A stretch of 64,000 nt of DNA. Source: Onchidella celtica (Eukaryota; Mollusca; Gastropoda; Systellommatophora; Onchidiidae). The notes under the pieces were generated by a model. The model did no database searches. It saw nothing but the letters and a program-made list of their open reading frames with translations, and was not told the origin of the DNA. Numbering within the stretch: the first letter of the stretch is position 1; each line of letters starts with the position of its first letter. Of the stretch, positions 1-63,487 are shown piece after piece. The position numbers were made by a program, and so were the translations under genes. The stretch spans positions 41,068,913 to 41,132,912 of the forward strand of contig OZ007571.1 of NCBI GenBank assembly GCA_963931925.1. The letters run 5' to 3'.

Positions 1-525
1 CGAGGGGACCACTTTCTTTCGATATTTAAAGAATCGGGATCACAGGTAAGGTTTGAAGCGGGGCCAACAGTATTAGGCTGAGCCCCTCTAGAAACCAAAG
101 GACCTCAAGCCGTGTAGGATTTGATGTCTTTGTCTCAGAAGCATCACTGGGCTACTCTGTGCATTTACACTTTGCTTTTCTTGTTTTAAGTTGTCCTGTC
201 TCTTGTTTCTTCTGTTTTTGCTTGTTTCTTGTCCTTTTCTGCCATATGTCTTCCACTTCCTTTTCTTCTACTTCTCCTGCATCTGTTTCTTCCGCCTCCC
301 CAGTTTTCTTCTTCTTCCTCTTGTTCTTAGCCTTCAAAAGCATGTTGGAATTGTATCGTCTGTATCGATTACCACGCTGTCATGAGAACCACGTGAGAAA
401 TAAAATCTGATCTACCTTTGCAGGTGAAAGATGGCAGCCTCGGAGTCCTGGAGGAACAACAACAGCCCAATAAAAGGCAAAAACTCAAGGGCATGACGGA
501 ACAGGATGCTTTTATCATTTTTTAA
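1..525 (+). CDS. 3' end of an unidentified protein-coding gene (last two coding exons)
   Basis: Two exons are proposed: 1-45 (open to the left, donor GTAAGG at 46) and 424-525 (acceptor TTTGCAG ending at 423, stop TAA at 523-525). Both are in phase 0, so they join without a frame break. The joined tail of 48 residues starts RGDHFLSIFKES and ends MTEQDAFIIF; it has a short Gln/Lys-rich patch and a hydrophobic C-terminus. A polyadenylation signal follows about 400 bases later. I do not recognise the family and give no function. The call rests on splice-site quality and phase agreement over a short stretch, so it could be chance. A lysine/glutamate-rich minus-strand frame overlaps the intron at 152-343; I regard it as low-complexity noise. 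Confidence 0.45.
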
Positions 526-60008: not shown

Positions 60009-60024
60009 CCCTCTACCGCATAAT
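60009..60024 (+). repeat. Left terminal inverted repeat of piggyBac
   Basis: CCCTCTACCGCATAAT, directly after TTAA; pairs with 63472-63487. Confidence 0.8.
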
Positions 60025-60040
60025 GTTGCCTCAGGGCAAC
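60025..60040 (+). repeat. Subterminal gapped palindrome, left copy 1
   Basis: GTTGCC-TCAG-GGCAAC directly follows the left terminal repeat and is preceded by GCATAAT. Confidence 0.8.
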
Positions 60041-60372
60041 ACACCAAAATTGTGCTTACTAAATTGAGTTCATCATTGAGTGTGCTACTGGAGTAACTTC
60101 CCTTGATTTTTCAAAGCTATGTATACACTATTAGCCCTACCGTTTGATTTTGGCACTACTGCGGAGGGAAACAGAAGCATCTTTGTCTGACAAGTCTTTG
60201 CATTTTGGAACCCAGCTATTCCTACAAAGTTGATTCCCAGCATCGTCCTTATAGGTGAGTAACCACTATTCAAAAAATTTTTATTTATATTTGTATGGTT
60301 ATAAGAAAGTAGAGGCAGCATTACTGTGCACAGGTGAAGTGTCTGGACTTTGTAGTGTGGTGTCAAGTGTTT

Positions 60373-60388
60373 GTTGCCTGAGAGCAAC
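60373..60388 (-). repeat. Subterminal gapped palindrome, left copy 2
   Basis: GTTGCCTGAGAGCAAC followed by ATTATGCA; on the minus strand it repeats the layout of copy 1 (GCATAAT and then GTTGC...GCAAC). Confidence 0.75.
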
Positions 60389-60426
60389 ATTATGCACTTC
60401 CTGAGAAACATTCATCCAGAGGGTAT

Positions 60427-60442
60427 GTTGCTTCAAGGCAAC
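60427..60442 (-). repeat. Subterminal gapped palindrome, left copy 3
   Basis: GTTGCTTCAAGGCAAC followed by AGTATGCA; the same layout as copy 2, also inverted relative to copy 1. Confidence 0.75.
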
Positions 60443-60711
60443 AGTATGCAGTTCAGCCTGAACTAGATGTCATATCATTTATATTCAGTGCATCATTGAT
60501 TGATGAATATTTATGTAAGTATTATGCAGTAACATCCATAAATGGGGAGGGGGGGGGGGGGAGAGCCCGAAGGCCTAGATCTGGCTTCTATGTGGTTTGT
60601 TCTAGAATCCTGTATCACGTTTGTATTTGTAGAATATTTTCCCTGTAGAAAGGACTGTACTAACTTTTGTGTGTGTGTGTGTGTTTTTACATTTCAGTTT
60701 TCAAGATCAGA

Positions 60712-62835
60712 ATGGAACTCGACCCCGTAAGATTCTATGGGAGGCGCCACAGGAATGTCGCTGTGCGACAAATACCAGACGAATCTGATGACAGTCAGCT
60801 TTCGTCATCTGATGACGAGGAAGTCAACATACCAGATCAAGATCACCAAAACACAAATTCTGGTACAATATGGCCTTTTTATTTCTCCTGCTGTTGTTTG
60901 ATTGTGTGTCCGTAGTTGTTTGTGTCATGTGGGCCAAAATGTATGTTTCCTCTGTTGCATTGCTAATGCTGTTTTACACTTTACCATGCACAACAGTATG
61001 AATTCTAAATGAAATGAGACAGCTATTATCATTTCAAATAATAGTTCTCCGTTTCAAGTGTCAGAATGTGTTGTTTAGCTTCATGTAGGCCTATTTGTTT
61101 CAACGGCCTCTGGAAACAAGAAGTTTATTTATTATGGCTATTGTGACAACAAATTGGCATCATTATATTTTTTGTTTCTTTCCAGGAATTGAATTGCTAT
61201 ATTGAATTTGCAAATTATTTATCCATACTCTGTCCACTGTTCTCAGATTCAAACTCAGAAGACTCGGACCCAGACGTCCCTGGTCCTTCCAGAAAAAAGA
61301 ATGGTCCTCGGCGAGTCATCTGGCGGAAAAGAAGGCCTGAGGATGTGCCTGCACAAGAGCTGCCATTCACTGGTAGGACCCCTGCTCCTGTCAATGAACT
61401 CAAAGATCCCATTCAGTATTTCAAACAGTTCCTAACGGACGACCTACTACTACACATGACAATGCAGTCAAACCTGTATGCCACCCAGTGCAACCCGAAC
61501 AAGCCCCTGGAACTTTCTAGGAAGGAGCTGGAGCAGTTCATCGGAATTGTTCTCACGATGAGCTGTGTGAAAATGCCCAATTCACGCATGTATTGGAGCA
61601 AGTCTTATCGTTACAGCCAGATTGCAGATGTAATGACAGTAAATCGATTTGAACAAATCAAAAAGAATCTGCATTTGAATGACAACACCCAAATGCCCGT
61701 CGATAACACTGACAAGCTGTACAAGGTACGCCCTCTCCTGAACGGCCTGTGCATGAAATTCATGGAAACAATCCCAGCAGAGAAACTTAGCATCGATGAG
61801 CAAGTCGTTCCCTTCAAAGGAAGATCCACCTTGAGAACTTACAACCCCAAGAAGCCAAAGAAATGGGGTTACAAGATCTACGTCCTTTGTGGAGTTGATG
61901 GTCTCATCCACAATTTTCAGTTCTATACAGGGACAATTTACCCAGTGCCTGGACAGCCTGACTTGAAAGCATCTGGCAACATCGTTCTGCAGCTACTTCA
62001 GGCAGTCCCCAGAGGTTTGTGGCATAAGGTCTACTACGACAACTGGTTCACGGGAATCGACCTTATGTCCACTCTGTGGAAGCAGCAGATCGCCTGCGTG
62101 GGGACAGTTCGGGCAAACCGCTTGATGGGCTGCAAGATGGAGAGTGACACAGAACTGAAGGCTGAGGGCAGGGGATCAATGGTTCTTTACACGGGGCAAA
62201 GTGATGGAGTGGAACTAAACGTGGTAAAGTGGTTCGACAACAAGGCCGTCACTCTCCTGAGCACTTTTGTTGCAGCTGAGCCAGTCAACGAAGTTGAGAG
62301 GTGGTGCAAGAAGGAGAGAAAGAAAATCACTGTCTCTCAACCAGCTGTCGTTGGAACATACAACAAGTTCATGGGGGGAGGAGTTGACTTGCTTGACTCC
62401 CTCATTGCATTATACAGAACCCACTTGCGGTCCAGAAAGTGGTACCATCGAGTCATCTTCCACATGTGGGATATGACCACCGTGCAGGCCTGGCTTCTCT
62501 ATAGAAGGGAGGCTGCAGCAAAGGAGATCCCAAAGAAGACTCAGCTCTCCCTTCTGGACTTCAAACTACAAGTGTCTGAATCTCTTATGAAGATGAACAC
62601 AGGCGCTGGGAATGGAGCCAAGCGCGGCCGTCCATCGATGGACATGGAGCTGCAACTGGCTGCGAAGAAGAAAAGGGGACCAGCAGCTCCCGTCCCGGTT
62701 CAGGCTGTGAGGACTGACCAGACAGGTCACTGGCCTGTCTATGGTGAGAATACGCCAAAAATAATGTGTGAAAAGTGTAGCGTCCACTTGTGTTTTACGC
62801 CAGAGAACAATTGTTTCAGGCTGTTTCATCAGTAG
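60712..62835 (+). CDS. piggyBac transposase (PGBD4-like), two exons, intact
   Basis: Exons 60712-60862 and 61247-62835 join in phase 1 to give 579 residues, close to human PGBD4 (585). The ATG has good context (AGAATGG), and a splice acceptor (TTTCAG) lies just upstream, suggesting a further 5' UTR intron. The N-terminus is acidic (DESDDSQLSSSDDEE). The DDE/D catalytic core is complete: SIDEQVVPFKGR (D234), YYDNWFTG (D315) and MGGGVDLLD (D431, D434). The C-terminus has a basic KKKRG stretch and a compact Cys/His-rich segment with C558, C561, H564, C566, C573 and H578. The enzyme excises and inserts the element at TTAA. There are no stops or frameshifts. The ends and palindromes around it are described separately. 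Confidence 0.93.
60863..61246 (+). other. Intron of the piggyBac transposase
   Basis: GTACAA donor and TTCTCAG acceptor. Reading through the intron hits stops, whereas splicing restores DSNSEDSDPDVPG after the exon 1 serine. It is 384 bases long and AT-rich. Confidence 0.75.
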
Positions 62836-63251
62836 ATACCTTTTGCATTCATTATATATATGTGTTTAGCACAGCAGAAACTGCCTGTTCTAATTTTAGT
62901 TTACTTAGATGTTTGCTATTTTCTTGAGGAGTGAAGTTCCTGTAGTACCTTTGGTTTGAATGTCTTCAATTTGCTTGTTCCATGTTAGTGCTATGTATTT
63001 TAATTACTGTATGTAATCATTTTGTATCCTTTGTCTTTGAAGTTTCACTTTCACTTACCACTAATATGATTTTAGCTTTGTATTATTACATATTTCTTGA
63101 TTTTCCTGCTACAATTTCAATCAGTCACTGTATTTTCTCATTGAAACAATTGACGAAAGTCCAAGTTTTCCATTTTCATAGTTGTGTTATTTAGGCCTAT
63201 AATGTAATTGTTCTTGCCAACTGTTATGAAAAGAAAGCTCTTTGAATGAAA

Positions 63252-63257
63252 AATAAA
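63252..63257 (+). terminator. Polyadenylation signal of piggyBac transposase
   Basis: AATAAA 417 bases after the stop codon, inside the element and ahead of the right-end palindrome. Confidence 0.5.
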
Positions 63258-63338
63258 TGGTAAAGCACCAAAATATTACATGAAAAAGAAAAACACTGTG
63301 TTGATCTCTTTATGTATATGTTGTGCAAAAAGCACAAT

Positions 63339-63354
63339 GTTGCTTTCAGGCAAC
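63339..63354 (+). repeat. Subterminal gapped palindrome, right copy
   Basis: GTTGCTTTCAGGCAAC preceded by GCACAAT; 133 bases from the right end of the element. Confidence 0.75.
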
Positions 63355-63471
63355 AAACCCACCCTGGGTGCCCATATTGCATAATCAGCAAATTCTTGCA
63401 AACACACATTATTTTGTGATGAAAATAGCCTACATTCCAATTTTCATGCTGCAATTACAAAATTTTCATAA

Positions 63472-63487
63472 ATCATGCAGTAGAGGG
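63472..63487 (-). repeat. Right terminal inverted repeat of piggyBac
   Basis: Reads CCCTCTACTGCATGAT on the minus strand; followed outside by TTAA (63488-63491). Confidence 0.8.

Follow-up and report, generated by a model that had tools for sequence, protein, structure and literature searches.

The window, which is the whole 64-kb stretch of DNA analysed here and belongs to a genome of 1.14 Gb, contains a complete piggyBac element (Table 1). The sequence TTAA CCCTCTAC... is found at both ends of this element and again at further loci, in keeping with the TTAA target duplication and the terminal repeats beginning with CCC that characterise the piggyBac superfamily. Six copies, including the one in the window, align at 99.9-100% over essentially their full length, a seventh (on C12) aligns at about 99%, and older relatives are located on C5 (two), C14, C2 and C1. 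The main open frame encodes a transposase that matches those of piggyBat (9c0f, 2.6e-33) and piggyBac (6x67, 4.9e-23), and the aspartates that we take to be the three catalytic ones of DDE_Tnp_1_7 are invariant in seven families and align with those of 6x67 and 9c0f. The zf-Tnp_2 profile scores 19.4 bits on the window protein against a cut-off of 24 bits, and the putative C-terminal cysteine-rich domain (CRD) is shortened by an in-frame loss. C12, C5 (two) and C1 carry copies that have the missing 10-residue stretch or most of it, and five near-identical siblings share the shortening, as judged by equal frames and by matches without a long gap (L036-L041 versus L042 and L046). The copies with the shortened CRD are those that spread most recently.

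Table 1. Features of the window (positions in the window) and layout of nine piggyBac families (first base of each site as distance in bp from the tip on that side; numbering starts at the base that follows TTAA)
Feature or family	Position	Strand	Remarks
Whole piggyBac element, TTAA to TTAA	60005..63491	+	3,487 bp; terminal repeats, TTAA on both sides
Left terminal repeat CCCTCTACCGCATAAT	60009..60024	+	16 bp; ends in the 7-base arm of module 1 (60018-60024)
Palindrome 1	60025..60040	+	Exact match; bp 17-32 from left tip
Predicted splice donor GTGAGT	60255..60260	+	bp 247; sequence prediction
Inner module 1	60373..60395	-	Palindrome 60373-60388 (bp 365-380), arm 60389-60395; inverted
Inner module 2	60427..60449	-	Palindrome 60427-60442 (bp 419-434), arm 60443-60449; inverted
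Main open frame, piggyBac transposase (DDE_Tnp_1_7)	61189..62835	+	Pfam 1.7e-74
CRD gap site	62746..62751	+	30 bp (10 residues, two cysteines) of other copies absent
Right-end module	63332..63354	+	Arm 63332-63338, palindrome 63339-63354 (bp 134-149 from right tip)
Right terminal repeat CCCTCTACTGCATGAT	63472..63487	-	16 bp; arm without palindrome
Family A (window)	Left 17, 365, 419; right 134		Left arm GTTGC
Family B	Left 17, 367, 414; right 134 (1 mismatch), 180		Left arm GTTGC
Family C (four copies)	Left 17, 365-368, 398-401, 565-568; right 133-134, 177-178		Left arm GTTGC; C69 without one inner site
Family D	Left 17, 367; right 130		Left arm GCACC, 7-base centre
Family F	Left 17, 371, 410, 436; right 134, 168		Left arm GGTYC
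Family G	Left 17, 370 (1 mismatch), 410; right 133		Left arm GTGCC
Family H	Left 17, 357, 409, 461; right 136		Left arm GTCCA
Family J	Left 17, 365, 420; right 129		Left arm GTCCT
Family K	Left 17, 366; right 134 (1 mismatch)		Left arm GTCCC

The exact pattern GTTGC-N6-GCAAC occurs four times in the window, at 60025, 60373, 60427 and 63339, in agreement with an earlier note on this DNA, and at no other place in the 64 kb. The expected number is 0.06 and none of 100 shuffles reached four, so that a chance origin of the four palindromes was rejected. If one mismatch is permitted, no further site appears, but the expectation rises to 1.56, and 5 of 100 shuffles then reach four; the case for the palindromes depends, therefore, on the exact matches. 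An arm resembling GCATAAT accompanies all four units (GCATAAT, GCATAAT, GCATACT and GCACAAT), not three of them as had been noted, and the units do point in both directions, but in the order +, -, -, + on the + strand of the element rather than in alternation. In the first unit the arm coincides with bp 10-16 of the terminal repeat, and the right tip has a similar arm, GCATGAT, but no palindrome. In both inner left modules and in the right-end module the arm lies on the inner side, that is, these modules are inverted relative to the nearest tip. A genome-wide search for the 23-base arm-plus-palindrome pattern rendered 32 exact matches and 76 with at most one mismatch, against none for the reversed-pattern control; by position, 28 of the exact matches belong to the window family and four to one sister family.

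Conservation among diverged copies, which the earlier note had proposed as a check, is apparent at the right end. In four of the five diverged family-A copies with right-end matches the module can be aligned, its arms being identical at 10/10 bases and its centre at 4/6, and the rest of the right end is 98, 94, 91 and 71% identical in these four. In the fifth, on C2, the right-end region is rearranged and an exact palindrome lies elsewhere in the locus. The diverged copy on C1 (L066) has one mismatch each at the tip and the first inner site and an intact second inner site, with a tip-to-inner distance of only 161 bp.

Both ends could be located for 12 piggyBac families of this genome, and nine of these agree in their layout: the left end starts with a palindrome at bp 17 and has an inverted module at bp 357-371, and the right end has a module whose distance from the tip is 129-136 bp (Table 1). 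At each end, the first inner or right-end site was taken to be the one closest to the tip, not counting the tip module, with at most one mismatch per 10 arm bases; the sites with one mismatch are the right-end ones of families K and B and the first inner one of family G. The inner module is inverted in all nine families, and the right-end module is in + orientation in eight, with one tie. The palindromes are written with seven different arm spellings, those of H, J and K (GTCCA, GTCCT, GTCCC) being close to each other. Families B and C were chosen partly for their common arm sequence, D and F came from a scan of further protein matches (for F at up to 3 mismatches in 12, which also gave two matches inside the gene), and G and H from an out-of-sample scan after A-D and F. 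The predicted layout was then fixed in advance and compared with five new families, for which six regions were taken, the sixth (L074) belonging with family D: J and K fit the prediction, and I, E and M did not. Family I (L073:849-3505) has TTAACAC ends and tandem left palindromes at 17 and 60, 43 bp apart, with no right-end palindrome, and thus has the palindrome at bp 17 without the layout of the nine families. Families E (L071 and L077) and M (L072 and L079), which are related, have no sites beyond a single tip palindrome of 18 bp, which occupies bp 27-44 and is exact in M; they represent a different end type. In the family-D relative L074 the tip palindrome is absent (L074:84), for L051 element ends were looked for and not found, and a search of viral contigs for relatives gave 86 pattern stretches, none of them confirmed. 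Regarding the insertion sites, L076 (family K) has TTAA at its left end and CTAC after its right tip, which was recognised via the terminal repeat, so that its two ends may stem from different insertions, and two family-C copies, L052 and L081, are flanked on both sides by CTAG and by ATAT, respectively, in place of TTAA, so that in this family insertion may not be restricted to TTAA among four-base targets.

The spacing is very tight. The tip-to-inner distance in the nine families is 349.2 bp (SD 4.0, range 340-354), with family H 9 bp short, and the right-end position is 133.0 (SD 2.2, range 129-136); under uniform placement in zones of 540 and 360 bp, respectively, ranges so narrow appeared in none of 2,000,000 draws each, a comparison in which the families are not independent. 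Protein identity among eight of the families (F left out) is 26-53%, and all nine lie on one side of a branch of the tree with support 97/95. The right spacers have a mean z of 0.35, with none of 36 pairs above 3, and the left ones a mean z of 1.77, with 6 of 36 pairs above 3, which amounts to a slight residual similarity. Positions, rather than sequences, are what the nine families have in common. Since a single genome and one side of one branch are concerned, the layout may have been inherited once, and we conclude that it arose once. It could then be the case that the sites are transposase-binding modules whose positions were merely inherited from that ancestor, with no selection for distance, as the common branch and the trace of similarity in the left spacers would allow. 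We consider this distinctly improbable, because the spelling and nearly all of the spacer sequence have changed and the length has not, whereas a toy indel model, at a divergence of one substitution per site, leads one to expect an SD of 12-26 bp in the left spacer. The lengths of the layout are probably held by selection, as argued from that model.

Copies within families offer natural comparisons. Family C has nine right-end copies, and the positions of exact pattern matches, together with the loci, show the inner and right-end modules to be retained in eight of them. The copies examined at sequence level, L052 excepted, have lost coding DNA, and no full-length family-C protein was found among the 81 candidates scored out of 904, only part of these 81 being assigned to families. 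The copy on C9 (L069) has two of its inner modules fused by a loss of 33 bp, from palindrome to next palindrome; that at C1:26.67 has an unmatched tip; that on C15 (L052) has one mismatch in the tip and right 133 sites; and that on C18 (L081) has these two sites intact, two inner sites and right 177 damaged, and the third inner site absent. One gene deletion is common to L068, L069 and L081, so that a deletion derivative seems to have moved. In family D, a tip module is matched in 23 copies, and in 18 of these the distance from its start to the start of the inner module is exactly 358 bp. The other five have no inner match and are all gapped there, the gap sizes differing from copy to copy, so that no loss of the inner site is seen to have spread; the gap clearly spans the module in two of them (C4:39.96, which has an open 620-residue frame, and C17:19.87), and the remaining D copies, too, often have gaps near the inner site. 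On the basis of these copies, a site lost after insertion is indistinguishable from an element that transposed without it. The refuting condition set by the earlier note, namely copies that lack the palindromes and yet keep intact ends and activity, gave no clear refutation. A family-B deletion derivative of roughly 400 bp (L067:79-475) retains both ends and TTAA without the inner and right-end palindromes, and says little, since it has a full-length match at one place only. The palindromic modules themselves seem prone to deletion, at the tip (L074:84) as well as at the inner site (C4:39957547-39957681, C17:19870380-19870544).

The modules have counterparts in known elements. In Trichoplusia ni piggyBac a CRD dimer occupies bp 17-33 of one left end, where the sequence is palindromic (PMC7351741), and the LE35 and RE63 ends of that element resemble those described here in the left palindrome (here bp 17-32), in their asymmetry and in the TTAA target (PMC7351741, PMC12324416). 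The right-end repeat of T. ni piggyBac, however, begins 31 nt inward from the 13-bp terminal repeat (PMC7351741, PMC12324416), whereas the right palindrome here is at bp 134-149, not close to the tip, and is inverted, not direct, and the inverted inner left modules, some 350 bp from the tip, are a further difference. In piggyBat, from Myotis lucifugus, a six-base motif at bp 11-16 stands three bases before an imperfect palindrome bound by two CRDs, and this pair occurs three times at the left end (PMC11707139), so that a directional motif plus palindrome repeated on the left, and a right motif without palindrome, are found in piggyBat as well (PMC11707139, PMC13405395). On the other hand, the piggyBat modules are in tandem and in the same direction, with motifs at bp 11, 55 and 99, ca. 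44 bp apart, and with no right palindrome (PMC11707139, PMC13405395), whereas the inner modules here are 348 and 402 bp inward and inverted, and a right palindrome is present; it is family I, with sites at 17 and 60, that resembles the piggyBat arrangement. Short palindromes near the ends of piggyBac-like elements have already been described as a class, and the accessible portion of that work, in treating their inner or subterminal inverted repeats, mentions no fixed long-range positions (PMC12324416). To the earlier note the repeated layout was unfamiliar. Repetition as the whole of the novelty had to be rejected, because piggyBat already has three left palindromes; the long-range fixed positions, on the contrary, seem new, no description of them having been found in the open literature searched, although a prior one is possible. 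Inner inverted repeats of piggyBac-like elements have reportedly been dealt with by Helou et al., and Li et al. (2005) are said to have addressed the need for internal piggyBac sequences. In the Drosophila P element, internal inverted repeats enhance transposition. As an analogue in its way of working, this element has them ca. 100 bp inside, and a zebrafish relative at 400 bp, but its transposase is unrelated and it makes an 8-bp target duplication (PMC7776569).

By analogy with these relatives, the most plausible reading of the palindrome and the adjacent GCATAAT is that of a module for transposase binding, of a kind already known, and an array of transposase dimer sites, one of two readings in the earlier note, is the better supported, in view of the agreement in position with the CRD site of piggyBac and with the piggyBat modules. 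We lean towards the view that the palindromes are CRD-dimer sites, that the arm is a contact for the core, and that the inner modules load dimers for end pairing. A CRD dimer on the palindrome and the core on the outer motif would correspond to the published structures of relatives: each palindrome would bind the CRD pair of a transposase dimer, the core of which would touch the GCATAAT arm next to it. The left-tip module (bp 10-32) would load the cutting dimer, which would pair with the right tip, and the inverted modules at left bp ~366 (in most families also at ~400-420) and right ~134 would load one or more further dimers holding the interiors of both ends together, so that an active complex would require a left and a right end that are both complete and correctly spaced. 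This model draws on the near coincidence of the tip palindrome with that of piggyBac and the adjacency of the arm as in piggyBat, on positions common to nine families with seven spellings, inverted inner modules and poorly aligning spacers, on the arms preserved in four diverged copies and the modules kept in 8/9 family-C copies, and on piggyBat, where a non-catalytic inner dimer is needed for pairing (PMC13405395). Against it count the restriction to one genome and one side of a branch, the unfitting families I, E and M, the short distance in H, the five D copies, the residual similarity of the left spacers and the lack of two cysteines in the window CRD. We infer that the inner modules bind transposase and act in end pairing, and that the distance is a selected feature, and the near-equal distances despite differing spellings suggest a measured protein-DNA assembly.

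Hairpins or cruciforms, or sites for a host protein instead of the transposase, would agree with the exact inverted repeats and with the loss of 33 bp from palindrome to palindrome in L069. Five-base exact arms make weak hairpins, though, a directional arm accompanies the palindrome, and it is difficult to see why the spelling should differ from family to family if a host protein were to bind it, all of which renders this explanation very improbable. The other reading of the earlier note, a built-in regulatory site, continues to compete where the two inner left sites are concerned, since these are situated past the predicted splice donor. They could be an operator in the 5' untranslated part, to which the transposase would bind and so restrict its own expression, or inhibitory end sites capping mobility; a donor-like GTRAGT lies between the tip and the inner site in eight of the nine families (1.74 expected), so that a predicted donor precedes the inner sites in these, and the third left-end site of piggyBat lowers activity (PMC11707139). 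But the right-end module is equally fixed though far from any promoter, a simple operator needs no exact bp 366, and most family-C deletion copies keep all modules, and we regard such a role as unlikely.

Extending the model of transposase binding at the modules, it is conceivable, if somewhat short of probable, that the transpososome of this clade is built on a conserved ruler, in which three to six modules with palindromes stand at defined distances and their spacing licenses the left-right pair. The modules would be at 17, ~366 and often ~400-420 on the left and at ~134, in some families also ~168-180, on the right, the first inner ones being inverted and several transposase dimers joining in a looped complex. 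The recognition sequence would vary between families and the geometry remain constant, so that spacing, not sequence, would identify the proper pair.

The asymmetry of piggyBac ends has been called enigmatic (PMC7351741). A layout shared by nine families with differently spelled palindromes predicts where extra dimers should sit, and opens the question of asymmetry to tests in which sites are moved or mutated. Should the palindromes be CRD sites, the six copies with the shortened CRD may depend on the transposase of other copies. Moreover, the pairs of a transposase and its differently spelled sites could serve gene delivery by tools free of mutual cross-reaction, and a vector that retains no more than the tips may be without some of the natural assembly.
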